DNA of 41,573 nt from Candidatus Zixiibacteriota bacterium (GTDB taxonomy: Bacteria > Zixibacteria > MSB-5A5 > UBA10806). A model generated the notes under the pieces. That model saw only the letters and a list, made by a program, of their open reading frames with translations. It did no database searches and was not told the DNA's origin. The position numbers and the translations under genes were made by a program. Shown here one piece after another: positions 36,295 to 41,573 of the stretch (positions are counted from its first letter, which is position 1; each line of letters begins with the position of its first letter). The stretch covers positions 527,893-569,465 of the forward strand of contig CP070742.1 of assembly GCA_020348065.1 (NCBI GenBank), read 5' to 3'.

Positions 36295-38076
36295 CTAATC
36301 TTTCGCTCCTTTCTTCGTTTGTAACGGCTCCTTAACATTGGCCCGATTTAAAATCCTCTGGAACTGTTTTCTGTGCATACCCCCCATTCTGGCCGCCGCC
36401 GATATATTACCCCCCGACGACTCCAGCAGGTTTATCGCGAAATTACGCTCTAACGGTACGATTGTCTTTTCCCACAACTCTTTTTTATAATCATTTAATT
36501 CCTTATGCGTATTGGGTATTCTTTCGTATTTCAAACCGTTTCTTATTACGGTATCGGGAAGTTCATTAGGAGTTAAAATATCGCCTTTGCATAAAACAAC
36601 AGCCCGCTCAATTATATTCTCGAGCTCCCTGATATTACCCGGATACCGGTAGCTCTTCAGGTAATTAAGGGCGGTTTCGCTTAACGATGAAATTTGCTTA
36701 TCGTTTTTTTCAGCATATACGCGGAGAAAGTGGTACGCCAGTGTCTCAACATCACCCTTCCTCCTGGATAGAGGCGGCAGGTTTATGGCTATTACATTTA
36801 TTCTATAGTATAGATCATCACGGAATTCGCCGGTTTCGACCATCTTCATTAAATCTTTCTTGGTGGCCGATATTATTCTAACATCCGCTCGTTTCAATGT
36901 TGTCGAGCCCAGAGGTTCGAACTCATGCGATTGCAAAAACCTCAAGAGTTTGACCTGCAATAACGGGGACAACTCTCCGATCTCATCCATGAATATGGTG
37001 CCCTTGTCCGCGATCTCAAATTTCCCCGGCTTGCGGCCGACCGCACCGGTAAAAGCTCCCTTTTCATATCCGAACAATTCGGACTCCAGAAGCGTCTCCG
37101 GAATCGCCGCGCAGTTTATGGCGACAAAGGGATGATCTTTCCTGGCCGAATTATAGTGAAGCGCCCGGGCCAGAAGCTCTTTGCCGGTTCCCGATTCTCC
37201 CTCGATCAAAACGGCGCTCTCCGTTTCCGCCACGTCTGCCACTGTGGCCAGGACTTTCCTTATCTGGGGAGAACTGCCTTTGATCTCCTCGAAATCATAT
37301 TTCTCCCTTAAATCCTCTATTAACGATTCCCCGTAATCCTCCAGAGCCGAAAAAAGTCTCTCCGATTCCACCGAAATAGCTATTTTGCCGGTCATCGTTT
37401 GAAGCAGATCGAGATCGAATTTTGTAAAACCGCTATCGTTACGAACCGAATATAAAATACCGAGAATGTCTTCACCCGTTTTCAGCGGAACGCAAATAAT
37501 ATTTCCCCCTCCGTCATCAGCGTCAATGCTTATGGGGTCTCCCGTGGATAACACCGCGTCCGCTATTGGCTTGGAAAACTTATATTTGTTATTCGAACTG
37601 CTCTTTAACGACGAATCGTATTTAAAAATGATTTCGCCCTCTTCCCCCGTTATCTGCAGCGACGCGTAATCGCAGGCCAGAATCTCGGTGGTGGTCTGCA
37701 CCACCCTTTTCAAAACCGATCGAAGGTCCCTTTCGGATGTTACGTCGATGGAGAACTCATACAGAGTTTTATAAATGTCTCGTTCCTTGGAGAGATACTC
37801 AACGCTTGATTTCAATTTATCGTATTCCCGAATCAGTTTGGCGACACGGGTATTCAGCGAATCCTCGAACCCCGAAAGCTTCTTTTCCACTGAATCGATT
37901 TTTTCGTTCAGTACGGTATATTGTCTGGGCCTTTCCTTCTCTCTTGTCTCGGTTAGATAATCTTTCAACGTGGAAATAGAATCGAACGACCTTTTTATCT
38001 GCGTCGCCGATTCTTTTTTAAGCTGCTTTAAGTTGGCGGCAAATTTCTCGCTGGTCTTTCCGATCGTCGCTTTCAT
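36295..38076 (-). CDS. Sigma-54-dependent transcriptional activator (GAF, AAA+, Fis-type HTH)
   Basis: In this 593-residue protein, residues 1-105 are predicted coiled coil (many K/E, for example LNEKIDSVEKKLSGFEDSL). Residues about 106-242 form a GAF-type sensor domain. The AAA+ core (about 265-495) has Walker A GESGTGKE at 293-300, the sigma-54 contact loop GAFTGA at 340-345, Walker B IFMDEIGEL (D364, E365) and an arginine-finger region (FRDDLYYRINV). The Fis-type HTH is at about 545-585 (NLLESSGGNISAAARMGGMHRKQFQRIL). It would open promoters for sigma-54 RNA polymerase in response to a signal sensed by the GAF domain. No histidine kinase is adjacent and no receiver domain is present. The nearest candidate target is the unit starting at 36057. 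Confidence 0.94.
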   Translation of the reverse strand: MKATIGKTSEKFAANLKQLKKESATQIKRSFDSISTLKDYLTETREKERPRQYTVLNEKIDSVEKKLSGFEDSLNTRVAKLIREYDKLKSSVEYLSKERDIYKTLYEFSIDVTSERDLRSVLKRVVQTTTEILACDYASLQITGEEGEIIFKYDSSLKSSSNNKYKFSKPIADAVLSTGDPISIDADDGGGNIICVPLKTGEDILGILYSVRNDSGFTKFDLDLLQTMTGKIAISVESERLFSALEDYGESLIEDLREKYDFEEIKGSSPQIRKVLATVADVAETESAVLIEGESGTGKELLARALHYNSARKDHPFVAINCAAIPETLLESELFGYEKGAFTGAVGRKPGKFEIADKGTIFMDEIGELSPLLQVKLLRFLQSHEFEPLGSTTLKRADVRIISATKKDLMKMVETGEFRDDLYYRINVIAINLPPLSRRKGDVETLAYHFLRVYAEKNDKQISSLSETALNYLKSYRYPGNIRELENIIERAVVLCKGDILTPNELPDTVIRNGLKYERIPNTHKELNDYKKELWEKTIVPLERNFAINLLESSGGNISAAARMGGMHRKQFQRILNRANVKEPLQTKKGAKD

Positions 38077-38279
38077 AATAGCGAAAAGATTTTATGACGA
38101 TTTTCAACAAACTGTCAAATTAAAAACAAGAATTATTTTTTGTTTTTTCATCAATCAACATAAAAATTTCTATTTATCACCTGTCAATTTTCACAATTAT
38201 AAAAATTATTCAAAATATCTTGCTATGGTAGGGATTTAATTTATTAGACCCTTGGGGCCGTTAACAAACTAAAATATTG
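38077..38279. other. AT-rich upstream region of the sigma-54 activator gene
   Basis: No gene is seen. The minus strand has two TTGACA words (38113-38118 and 38182-38187). Neither is followed by a good -10 at normal distance: the first has CATAAA after 16 bases, which would leave a leader of under 15 bases. Long A/T runs fill the rest. Confidence 0.35.
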
Positions 38280-38322
38280 TCATCGCGAGGAGTCAAGCGA
38301 AGCGAGACGACGAAGCGATCTC
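38280..38322. repeat. REP-like element with GCGA-rich words
   Basis: The segment starts TCATCGCGAGGAGTCAAGCG and ends GACGAAGCGATCTC, with ATCGC/GCGAT at its ends. It resembles an intergenic repeat that is common in many unrelated bacterial genomes (form TCATTGCGAGGAGCGAAGCG). That recognition is from memory. Confidence 0.5.
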
Positions 38323-38353
38323 AAATTTTACCTGAAGTAACCCGGTTATTCCC

Positions 38354-38367
38354 CTGGTAACCAAGCG
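38354..38367 (+). repeat. Third copy of a dispersed 14-mer
   Basis: CTGGTAACCAAGCG differs by one base from the 14-mer at 4163-4176, which also occurs reversed at 4342-4355. All three copies are intergenic. Confidence 0.4.
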
Positions 38368-38394
38368 CCCGCCCGGCAACTTTTGTATTTCGTG

Positions 38395-38746
38395 GTTGGC
38401 GGACGTCCCCGTCCGCCAACATACAGTTGGTGTCGGTAGACGAGCTACCGACCTACAAAAATACCAGGTGTGGTGGCAGTTCTCCGTATCTGCCACCTCC
38501 AGCCGTCAAGTGCGGGGACTTGACGGCACCCGGACCATACAGTTGGTGCACCGGGAGGTACACCAACCACTCAGATACCGGAAAAATGTAGGCGGGGAGT
38601 TTGATGAGCTCAGTCGAATCGAGCTTGTCTCCCTGCAATTGGTGTCGGTAGACGAGCTACCGACCTACAAAAATACCAGGTGTGGTGGCAGGTCTCCGTA
38701 CCTGCCACCTCCAGCCGTCAAGTGCGGGGACTTGACGGCACCCGGA
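38395..38746. repeat. Array of perfect stem-loops containing a 108-bp direct repeat
   Basis: A perfect hairpin at 38395-38420 (10-bp arms, 6-base loop) is followed by direct repeats at 38427-38534 and 38639-38746 (offset 212). Each unit holds three stem-loops: GTCGGTAG/CTACCGAC, GGTGGCAGGT/ACCTGCCACC and CCGTCAAGT/ACTTGACGG. The two units differ at only two of 108 positions, and these face each other in the middle stem (T and T at 38480/38489; G and C at 38692/38701). The spacer (38535-38638) holds further imperfect hairpins. No open reading frame explains the pattern. Confidence 0.85.
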
Positions 38747-38753
38747 AAACTTG

Positions 38754-38784
38754 TTTAAAAAGGGCGGCATTGCGCCGCCCTTTG
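38754..38784 (-). terminator. Intrinsic terminator of the large repeat protein gene
   Basis: On the minus strand AAGGGCGGC pairs with GCCGCCCTT around a 5-base loop, followed by TTTAAAC. It lies about 20 bases after the stop codon at 38804. Confidence 0.8.
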
Positions 38785-38803: not shown

Positions 38804-41573
38804 TTATTTCAGATACAGCATCTTCTTGGATTCACGGAAATCGCCGGCTTTCAAAACGTAGAAATAAATGCCGCCCGCGATCGGCTTGCCCGCCGCGTTG
38901 GAGCCATCCCAGTTGATGATATGCTCTCCGGCCGGAAGCTCCTCGGATACAAGCGTCGTTATCTGCCTGCCCAGGATATCGAATACTTTCAATTCCGTAA
39001 AGCCCGGTTTCGGCATATTAAAGCAGATATTGGTCCTGCTGTTAAACGGGTTGGGGTAGTTCTGAGAAAGGGTGAAGACATCCGGCAATCCCGTTGTAAG
39101 CTTGGGTGGCTTCCATTCGTATCCAACGGGAGCGCCGACAGAGTACACGTCACTCAAGTAGGTGCCGGTTGTGTCGTCCATGTACATTACGTACGCTGGA
39201 CTGTCATCAATTTCGAACACGCCGGGATCTCTATCAAATATAAAGACATAGGCCAATATTCCCGGACCGTTTACAGCAGAATCCGGAGAATCCGGGAAGT
39301 ATAGAGTAAAAGTTTCAGAATCAATGACCGGTGATTCGGAAAATGCCCAAGTACCTGGTTTTATTGAATCAGGTTTCGGTATACCATATGATGATATATC
39401 CGAGTTGACGTAGCCTAAGTGACATTCATAAACATCAGTTACACTCATGTATACTGCATTGACCTGAAAACTTACCACAGTATCACCGTGATTTACCGGG
39501 TTGCTCACACTTACGCTGAATTGAGGTATAGCCCATATGGCTTCCGAATCATCCATGGACCAGACGCTCATCGTGTCATTTCTAAGAATCTTTTCTTCGT
39601 AGCCGAAAGGAGAAAAGAAATCGTAAAACATACCTGGAGGGGTCCAATCATCCGTATAGAATTTAATTCCAGTGCTCGCGTTATTGACAAAAAGGTCGGT
39701 TGCATCGAACTTTATTTTAAAAAGAGTCTGTTTCTGATCGGGCAATATATATGTCCCGGCATCGGGCGGGTCAGCGGTCTCAAATTGACGGATCGCAATG
39801 TAGCTGGTGTCATTCTCAATGATGATGGTGTCAATCTCTACGAAATCGACGATGTCTACGGACGGAATATGCCCCCCCATGGAATCGACGCCGGTATAAG
39901 TAAGGTAACTGTAATTATATCCGATGTATAAATTGCTGTACTGCCCCCAAAAAGTCGTAGAACATACAACCGGGATTTCCACCTTGCCATAGGGGTCCAC
40001 AGAGTCAGGGACTACCAACGTAAGGTTTACTTCGTATTTGGGCAGGTAAATGCCTTCGGAAACCGCTGTCATGGAATCATAAGGTGTTTTATTAGCTGAA
40101 TCCCATGCAAAAACTTCGGTCATAGCATACGAAGGGAAGTACTTTTTTAAATCCAGGTTCAAAGTGTCGCAGAAATTTTGGTCGCCGTTATATCCGGACT
40201 TGAAATCGCCGACCATGAACTTCAGATCGCATAAATAATAAGTGCTGTCACCCCCGGACCTTGAAGCCGGGGCGCCCTTAACCATGATTGAATCCTGATT
40301 TTTTACGTAAATAACGACTCCGGCGTCAAGCGAATCATATCCCACGTACGTTAGAGAATCAGGTATCTCCACCAATAACTTATATGTACTGCAAGGATAA
40401 TTTGTGAACAATTTTACGGGGATTTTCAAAGGATTATCAAGCTTCGCCTGATCGGAACTGTCCGCACCTTGATATGAATACGCCAGAGCCGAACTAAAAG
40501 TCACTATCACCGTATCATTGGGAATTGTAACCGTGCCCCAGGTCGTGTCGATAACCTCGCAATCGTAAGGCGTGTCTTTTTTGGCCGCCGTGATTATGTG
40601 CCCGAAGTTAATAGTAAAAGAATCACCGAAATGATATTCATTCGAAATTTCAAATTTAAGGTCAATCACTCTTTCGGAAGTATCCGGAAGCAATGTGCCT
40701 CCACGCTCCAGATAGATTTCAACCGTATCTCCGCTCGATGAATCTGCGATAGAGCCGGACCAGGGTGTTCCTTCGGAATCAAGCGAGTCATAAGTAAGGC
40801 CGGCCGGGCAAACTGCCCAAATCTCGAGATATTCAAGAGTGTCGGCGTTGGTAACCAATACCGGCACGCTTACCGTATCCCCCGGCCAGCAGGTATCCAC
40901 GTCGGCGTATTCCAGAGCGACGTTGCTGCAAGTGTCCTCTCGAATTGTAACACTGCCCCAGGTTGTATCGCTGACATCACAATCGAAATGCGCGCCCTTT
41001 CTGGAAGCCGCTATGCTGTGCCCGAACTTAATAGTAAAAGATGTGCCTGAAGAAGAGGTGTCCGGAATTTCAAATTTAAGGTCAATCACTCTTTCAGAAG
41101 TATCCGGAGGCAAGGTGCCTCCCCGCTCCAGATAGATTTCGACCGTGCTCCCGCTCGATGAGTCTCCGATGGAGCCGGACCAGGGCGTGTTATCGGAATT
41201 AGCCCCCGCATAATTAAGGCCGGTCGGGCAAACTGCCCATATCTCGAGATATTCAAGAGTGTCGGCGTTAGTAACCAATACCGGCACGCTTACCGTATCT
41301 CCCTGCAAACAGCTATCCACGTGGGCGTATTCCAGAGCGACATTGTTACAAGGATCACTGCCGATTGTAATCGATCCCCAGGTGGTGTCGGTAACATCGC
41401 AATCATATGAATCGCCTTTTATGGCCGCCGCGATATTGTGCCCGAACTTAATAGTAAAAGAAGTATCGAAAGAAGAGGTATCCGGAATTTCAAATTTAAG
41501 GCCAATCACCCTTTCAGAAGTATCCGGAAGCAATGTGCCTCCGCGCTTCAGATGGATTTCAACCGTGCTCCCG
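38804..41573 (-). CDS. Large secreted repeat protein with cohesin-like units and type IX-like sorting tail, 5' end outside the window
   Basis: The frame is open to the window edge (about 920 codons), so the start and any signal peptide are missing. The visible N-terminal part consists of 140-residue units of cohesin-like or Ig-like type. Each contains VALEYADVDTCWPGDTVSVP, VTNADTLEYLEIWAVCP, GTPWSGSIADSSSG and RGGTLLPDTSERVIDLKFEI. About two and a half units are seen, then three diverged beta domains of similar style (about 350-800 of the visible part). The tail is QNYPNPFNSRTNICFNMP, then GGIYFYVLK, ending SKKMLYLK. No catalytic motif is seen. It is probably a surface or matrix protein. A TTG near 41533 is not the true start, because the repeat pattern continues upstream of it. 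Confidence 0.87.
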   Translation of the reverse strand, partial: GSTVEIHLKRGGTLLPDTSERVIGLKFEIPDTSSFDTSFTIKFGHNIAAAIKGDSYDCDVTDTTWGSITIGSDPCNNVALEYAHVDSCLQGDTVSVPVLVTNADTLEYLEIWAVCPTGLNYAGANSDNTPWSGSIGDSSSGSTVEIYLERGGTLPPDTSERVIDLKFEIPDTSSSGTSFTIKFGHSIAASRKGAHFDCDVSDTTWGSVTIREDTCSNVALEYADVDTCWPGDTVSVPVLVTNADTLEYLEIWAVCPAGLTYDSLDSEGTPWSGSIADSSSGDTVEIYLERGGTLLPDTSERVIDLKFEISNEYHFGDSFTINFGHIITAAKKDTPYDCEVIDTTWGTVTIPNDTVIVTFSSALAYSYQGADSSDQAKLDNPLKIPVKLFTNYPCSTYKLLVEIPDSLTYVGYDSLDAGVVIYVKNQDSIMVKGAPASRSGGDSTYYLCDLKFMVGDFKSGYNGDQNFCDTLNLDLKKYFPSYAMTEVFAWDSANKTPYDSMTAVSEGIYLPKYEVNLTLVVPDSVDPYGKVEIPVVCSTTFWGQYSNLYIGYNYSYLTYTGVDSMGGHIPSVDIVDFVEIDTIIIENDTSYIAIRQFETADPPDAGTYILPDQKQTLFKIKFDATDLFVNNASTGIKFYTDDWTPPGMFYDFFSPFGYEEKILRNDTMSVWSMDDSEAIWAIPQFSVSVSNPVNHGDTVVSFQVNAVYMSVTDVYECHLGYVNSDISSYGIPKPDSIKPGTWAFSESPVIDSETFTLYFPDSPDSAVNGPGILAYVFIFDRDPGVFEIDDSPAYVMYMDDTTGTYLSDVYSVGAPVGYEWKPPKLTTGLPDVFTLSQNYPNPFNSRTNICFNMPKPGFTELKVFDILGRQITTLVSEELPAGEHIINWDGSNAAGKPIAGGIYFYVLKAGDFRESKKMLYLK
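40490..41573 (-). repeat. 420-bp tandem coding repeats
   Basis: Matching words recur at a period of exactly 420 bases, for example AGTATCCGGA near 40678, 41098 and 41518. Stretches encoding TNADTLEYLEIWAVCP are nearly identical at the DNA level. The array continues past the window edge. Confidence 0.85.

Follow-up and report, generated by a model that had tools for sequence, protein, structure and literature searches.

Why should two near-identical copies of a hairpin-rich repeat differ only at two bases that face each other across a stem? The question is raised by an intergenic region of Candidatus Zixiibacteriota, located in the 41,573-nucleotide stretch of DNA analysed here (the window). 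A preliminary description, made from the sequence alone, reported two 108-bp copies, 212 bp apart, with two facing stem positions as their only differences (T/T in one copy, G-C in the other). Selection on the folded form or correction of one arm from the other was proposed as the cause, with a structured RNA, a REP-like mobile element or a recombination site as possible identities, and a search of the genome and its relatives for the units, as well as a covariation test on an alignment, was suggested as a check. Self-comparison of the window bears out the starting observation: the unit occurs at 38427-38534 and 38639-38746, spaced by 212 bp, and the copies differ at exactly two sites, 38480 (T in copy 1, G in copy 2) and 38489 (T and C, respectively). 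Both sites fall in the hairpin GGTGGCAG-x-TCTCCGTA-y-CTGCCACC, where they lie opposite each other, as T-T in copy 1 and as G-C in copy 2. The probability that two random differences within 108 bp face each other in a stem is ~0.5% (28-31 pairs out of 5778 site pairs), which is unusual, if not extreme, for a single hand-picked example. Folding of the array region yields -179.7 kcal/mol compared with -125.8 kcal/mol for shuffled sequences (z = -10), and a z of about -10 is reached with RNA and DNA folding alike.

A search of the genome (3.74 Mb, one contig) and of its relatives found the pieces of the array in many places and in differing combinations. Each piece is a REP (repetitive extragenic palindrome), in which a hairpin with a conserved loop comes after a short foot, and the REPs belong to three families, A, B and C, that occur throughout this genome and its relatives. 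In all three families, REPs form inverted pairs (REPINs) with the feet pointing outward. The array is very probably a nested cluster of REPINs from three families. The hairpin arms, previously described as unrelated to each other, are inverted copies of common REP designs, with feet and loops shared within the three inverted-pair families. The features of the array and its immediate surroundings are as follows.

38279..38322, plus strand: further dispersed palindromic repeat left of the array, GTCATCGCGAGGAG...GACGAAGCGATCTC; same type, with other stems, at L012, L017, L020 and L021.
38392..38432, plus strand: GTGG foot, 11-bp hairpin GTTGGCGGACG-TCCC-CGTCCGCCAAC (38395-38420), spacer and start of the right REP, together the left part of a family-A REPIN.
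38420..38535, plus strand: first copy of a putative tandem duplication; the 96 bp that separate the A and C TTGGTG repeats are missing.
38430..38456, minus strand: family-C REP, half a REPIN; minus strand GTAGGTCGGTAGCTCGTCTACCGACAC, GTAG foot; pattern match at 566324-566348 of the window's own genome (G000).
38469..38530, plus strand: first copy of the family-B REPIN, an inverted pair of REP hairpins with 10-bp stem and 6-base loop; 84.1 bits with covariance model R1; bears the T-T mismatch at 38480/38489.
38536..38570, plus strand: right REP of the same family-A REPIN, GTTGGTGcACC-GGGA-GGTaCACCAACCAC; R2 match 38512-38570.
38536..38747, plus strand: second, complete copy of the putative tandem duplication, with A-right, C and B separated by spacers, in this order.
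38588..38668, plus strand: complete family-C REPIN with a GTAG foot at either end; 38588-38637 is the left REP, of the long-loop variant, and 38642-38668 the right REP.
38681..38742, plus strand: family-B REPIN copy 2; G-C at 38692/38701; 88.1 bits with R1.
38759..38783, minus strand: intrinsic-terminator-like hairpin and T run, for the minus-strand gene 38804-41533; minus-strand fold -18.9 kcal/mol.

The order in the window is A-left, C-right, B (copy 1), A-right, complete C and B (copy 2): family A is split by a 116-bp insertion, family C is present once whole and once as a half, and family B is present twice. Covariance model R2 (family A) matches 38392-38452 with 50.3 bits (E=1.3e-10), and the left part (38392-38432) joined to 38549-38570 makes up a canonical 63-bp A REPIN. 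Indeed, deleting 38433-38548 restores the exact 63-bp element. The right A REP carries a recurrent C-A mismatch and starts with CATACAGTTGGTG, a 13-bp duplicate of 38420-38432. Assignment of the complete C REPIN is based on the pattern search and on the occurrence of its long variant at L009 and L011, with a short form at L014. This long left-REP variant has ~24 extra loop bases (TTCGATGAGCTCAGTCGAATC) and is dispersed in at least four places, including L009 (G000:C1:579838 and 580079), L011 and the window itself.

When the 116-bp segment U1 (38420-38535) was aligned with the 212-bp segment U2 (38536-38747), they were found to be a single segment present twice. Judging by this alignment, the 108-bp repeat would simply be the part in which both segment copies are still alike. 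A local origin is proposed, whereby a segment comprising A-right, C and B would have been duplicated in tandem, the first copy subsequently losing 96 bp between two TTGGTG repeats to leave an A/C chimera; the order of these events is our reconstruction. Another possibility considered was that a transposase inserted a 103-bp segment and duplicated 13 bp of target. Target duplications are not known for Y1 enzymes, and tandem duplication with a TTGGTG deletion accounts for both copies; for these two reasons the insertion reading was set aside.

The array is placed between the terminator-like hairpin and a promoter-like site (38089-38118) of the minus-strand gene 36295-38076, which encodes a sigma-54 regulator; the product of the minus-strand gene 38804-41533 has a sorting-domain tail. 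A pattern scan for terminators did not call the hairpin at 38759..38783. We sought an orthologous site free of the array. The sister species (G001) possesses the sigma-54 regulator (85% identity), and no array stands beside this gene either there or in G002, a genome from the family to which the window's belongs; in these genomes, however, the neighbour on the right is also a different one. The gap between the VOC and amidohydrolase genes contains an A REPIN in the window's genome and unrelated hairpins in the sister species. Unfortunately, no clean empty site was obtained between the sister species, because their intergenic regions turn over too fast. Elsewhere in the window, 38341-38380 (CTGGTAACCAAGCGCCCGCCCGGCAAC) resembles a decayed copy of the hairpin CTGGTTACCAAGCGCCTGCTTGGTAACC, which flanks the gene of a RAYT (REP-associated tyrosine transposase) at G000:C1:2040455 (L078). 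A family-B-related REPIN (GTGGCGCCGGGTCACCCGACCCGGCGC ... GCTGTCGGGTCGGTGACCCGACAGCAC; 44 bits with R1) is found at 1084-1152, with a loop type similar to that beside the RAYT at G000:C1:2151645.

The three families were searched for with covariance model R2 (A), covariance model R1 (B) and a pattern (C). Family A reads GTGG-TTGGCGGACG-TCCYCG... followed by inverted GTTGGTGCACC-GGGA-GGTACACCAAC-CAC; family B reads GTG + GTGGCAGGT-CYCCGY-ACCTGCCAC followed by inverted GCGGTCAAGT-RCGGRG-ACTTGACCGC-AC; and family C reads GTAG-GCGGGG-AGCTTGTC-TCCCCGC followed by inverted GTCGGTAGACAAGCTACCGAC-CTAC. In the window's own genome, families A and B each occur in at least about 25 places (lower bounds), while the family-C pattern gave 16 hairpin matches, compared with 1 for a reversed-pattern control. 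The hairpins are 26-32 bp long and present in many copies, in keeping with REPs, which are multicopy extragenic palindromes of 20-40 bp. A GT[AG]G foot is found in C (GTAG) and A (GTGG), and in part in B, where GTG is constant and the fourth base variable. Among 28 A and B elements inspected, 26 are outside any reading frame of more than 163 aa, and the other two are located in frames of 207 and 515 aa. In the fragmented genome G007, B REPINs are found near contig ends (e.g. C187 3261-3321, C222 8-64 and C70 49-106), as if they break assemblies.

Of the three identities first considered, the REP-like mobile element is the one borne out, and cognate transposase genes have now been found for it. 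For the Y1 transposases (Pfam PF01797), the window's own genome yields eight matches, of which seven exceed the curated cut-off, and five related genomes contain several apiece. An A-type RAYT in the window's genome (G000:C1:2836886-2837173) has R2 matches on both sides, at 2836618, 2836731, 2837306 and 2837369. Similarly, a B-type RAYT (G002:C79:53735-54016) is flanked on both sides by R1 matches at 53430, 53593, 54113 and 54231, and a C-type RAYT (G001:C1:2256984-2257235) has family-C hairpins on both sides when the flanks are read, with a pattern match at 2256892 of the same genome. Each family thus flanks a RAYT, in the window's own genome in the case of A only, and in related genomes in the case of B and C. 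The model and pattern searches, run over whole genomes and independent of the reading of the flanks, agree with it in the location of the matches. With about 25 A places in 3.7 Mb, an A match falling within 0.5 kb of a given gene by chance is improbable. The A, B and C proteins score 108, 106 and 88 bits against NCBIfam NF047646 (REP_Tyr_transpos; cut-off 80), and the HuH and Y...NP signatures are both present, H-x-H and Y...NPV being invariant in RAYT alignment A3. Among PDB entries, the A-type protein matches E. coli TnpA-REP best (4er8, E=0.0018). Seven more loci, six of them in Zixiibacteriota and one in an FCB-group genome, encode relatives of the A-type RAYT, and most of these are bordered, on one side or both, by inverted hairpins with a GTG foot and related loops. 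At L086 (G001:C1:2584121-2584577), a B-like subfamily with the loop GCCTG (GTGTCGTCAGGTCGCCTGACCTGACGAC) flanks the RAYT at G001:C1:2584323; in this case, RAYT and hairpin loop seem to diverge together.

The abundance of family B allows the fold to be inspected across many copies. A first covariance model, built from 12 copies, revealed compensated changes in 9 of 20 pairs. Alignment of the R1 matches yielded 84 distinct B hairpins, each with a GTG foot, a 10-bp stem and a 6-base loop CYCCGY, and 794 of their 840 stem cells are paired, whereas shuffling of one side gave a mean of 652 and a maximum of 672; as this control keeps column composition and not relatedness, the pairing numbers are descriptive. 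The outer stem positions 2 and 3 exchange freely between C-G, G-C and T-A, while hardly any variation is seen at 4, 6 and 10 in the stem or at 3 and 4 in the loop. The CYCCGY loop and the GTG foot are kept while the stems covary strongly. We read this as certain bases being recognised as such, others being needed merely as pairs. Selection on the folded form, as proposed at the outset, is thus upheld for family B as a whole.

The same does not hold for the pair that raised the question. This pair corresponds to B stem position 9, the states of which among the 84 hairpins are G-C (67), A-T (6), G-T (5), A-C (2), T-C (2), T-T (1) and C-C (1), and copy 1 in the window is the sole T-T. That the paired difference reflects compensatory selection, or correction of one arm from the other, is very unlikely: the differences do face each other, at chance odds of ~0.5%, and position 9 does alternate between G-C and A-T in family B, but T-T is unpaired and hence not compensatory, and correction of arm from arm predicts a Watson-Crick pair. 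In an outgroup copy, the sister-species composite L087, the focal sites are occupied by G and C; with G-C ancestral by both this copy and the family, both focal bases of copy 1 have been substituted and the pairing is gone. The T-T of copy 1 is a decayed pair, with G-C as the family and outgroup state. An identical stem bearing T-C is present at L088 in the sister species, and unpaired T-C, A-C and C-C states occur in other copies. The L088 state is a possible intermediate towards T-T, and an A-T ancestor another possible route, either of them without compensation or inter-arm copying. The compensatory reading is already contradicted; even descent of copy 1 from an A-T version, followed by one A-to-T substitution, would amount to a loss of pairing.

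A structured non-coding RNA of several hairpins, with its fold under selection, is highly improbable. Both the folding excess (z=-10) and the stem covariation are in its favour, although REPs would show covariation too. An Rfam scan of the window found no family at the gathering cut-off, and the units occur single or paired, in differing orders and orientations, at many places. Furthermore, the array is enclosed by the minus-strand terminator-like hairpin on one side and, on the other, by the promoter-like site that belongs to the next gene on this strand. In REP orientation, G-T mismatches outnumber A-C mismatches (30 vs 13, p=0.014; 23 vs 12, p=0.09 without the foot pair); as both REPs of an element point opposite ways, this bias hints, if weakly, that selection acts on the REP strand and not on a single transcript. 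A site-specific recombination site, i.e. an integron attC array or phage attachment site, is most improbable despite the tandem imperfect palindromes and near-identical copies, as the same elements are solitary and dispersed over the chromosome, the genes seen to be flanked by them are RAYTs and not integron integrases, and the neighbours at 36295-38076 and 38804-41533 (sigma-54 regulator and sorting-domain-tail protein) are not cassettes.

For the REPIN cluster, a mechanism can be proposed that starts from what these genomes contain: dispersed copies, inverted pairs, flanked cognate RAYTs, and compensated stems with a conserved loop. The cognate RAYT, as a single-strand HUH/tyrosine endonuclease, would bind the folded REP strand via foot and loop, cleave beside the foot, and then move or copy the REP pair elsewhere. 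Binding, cutting and movement by these RAYTs are carried over by analogy from the TnpA-REP enzymes of E. coli and Stenotrophomonas; recognition of foot, bulge and loop has been described (PMC8266576). The sister species contains a 140-bp A-left/C-right/B composite (G001:C1:2663919-2664058; L087 1995-2140) with 83% identity to the window, at a site non-orthologous to the window's, as if mixed composites were copied as a block. We suggest, tentatively, that such mixed composites may move or be copied as a block, as this homologous composite hints, and that a Zixiibacteriota-centred RAYT clade may read a distinct REP type (GTG-N foot, perfect 10-11 bp stem with freely covarying outer pairs, YCC-type loop).

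Having many naturally covarying hairpins per transposase helps to separate the bases that a RAYT reads from those needed only as pairs, and the locus illustrates how a striking paired change can mislead if just two copies are compared. A literature search for RAYTs in Zixibacteria returned incidental co-mentions only, with no description of REPs or RAYTs in Zixiibacteriota; the present elements extend the REPIN-RAYT system, with matched element and transposase pairs, to a phylum for which the literature searched holds no such description. REPINs and their RAYT were described in Pseudomonas fluorescens SBW25 by Bertels and Rainey 2011 (PMC3116915), who also report compensatory hairpin changes, REPIN clusters arising via tandem repeats, and insertion of REPINs into REPINs. 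The system described here resembles that of SBW25 in its dispersed, inverted REP pairs, with one family per RAYT and each RAYT flanked by its own family, and differs in having about 25 places per family compared with hundreds of REPs, a GTG-N foot in A and B, and a host from another phylum. REPtrons, with TnpA-Y1 subclasses 2.2 to 2.8 and their foot and subclass features, were set out by Quentin et al. 2018 (PMC6006769). Shared features are the hairpins on both sides of the RAYT gene, the GT[AG]G foot in A and C, and the presence in a genome of several RAYTs, all with REPs of their own. In contrast, SHLH/NHMH/THIH and YIH[NY]NP, the motifs of the A-, B- and L086-type proteins, match none of the listed subclasses exactly, the nearest by motif being 2.6 or 2.2. 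For GTAG-tagged REPs, Di Nocera et al. 2013 (PMC3733652) describe 24 families from 8 phyla, including head-to-head dimers and mixed clusters; family C is similar in its GTAG foot and AGCTTG loop, and differs in coming from the Zixiibacteriota, for whose REPs and RAYTs we found no description. Save for the variable fourth foot base in B, the elements have the defining features examined of the known REPIN-RAYT kind, and the array is a well-made instance of a known element type in a little-studied bacterial phylum.
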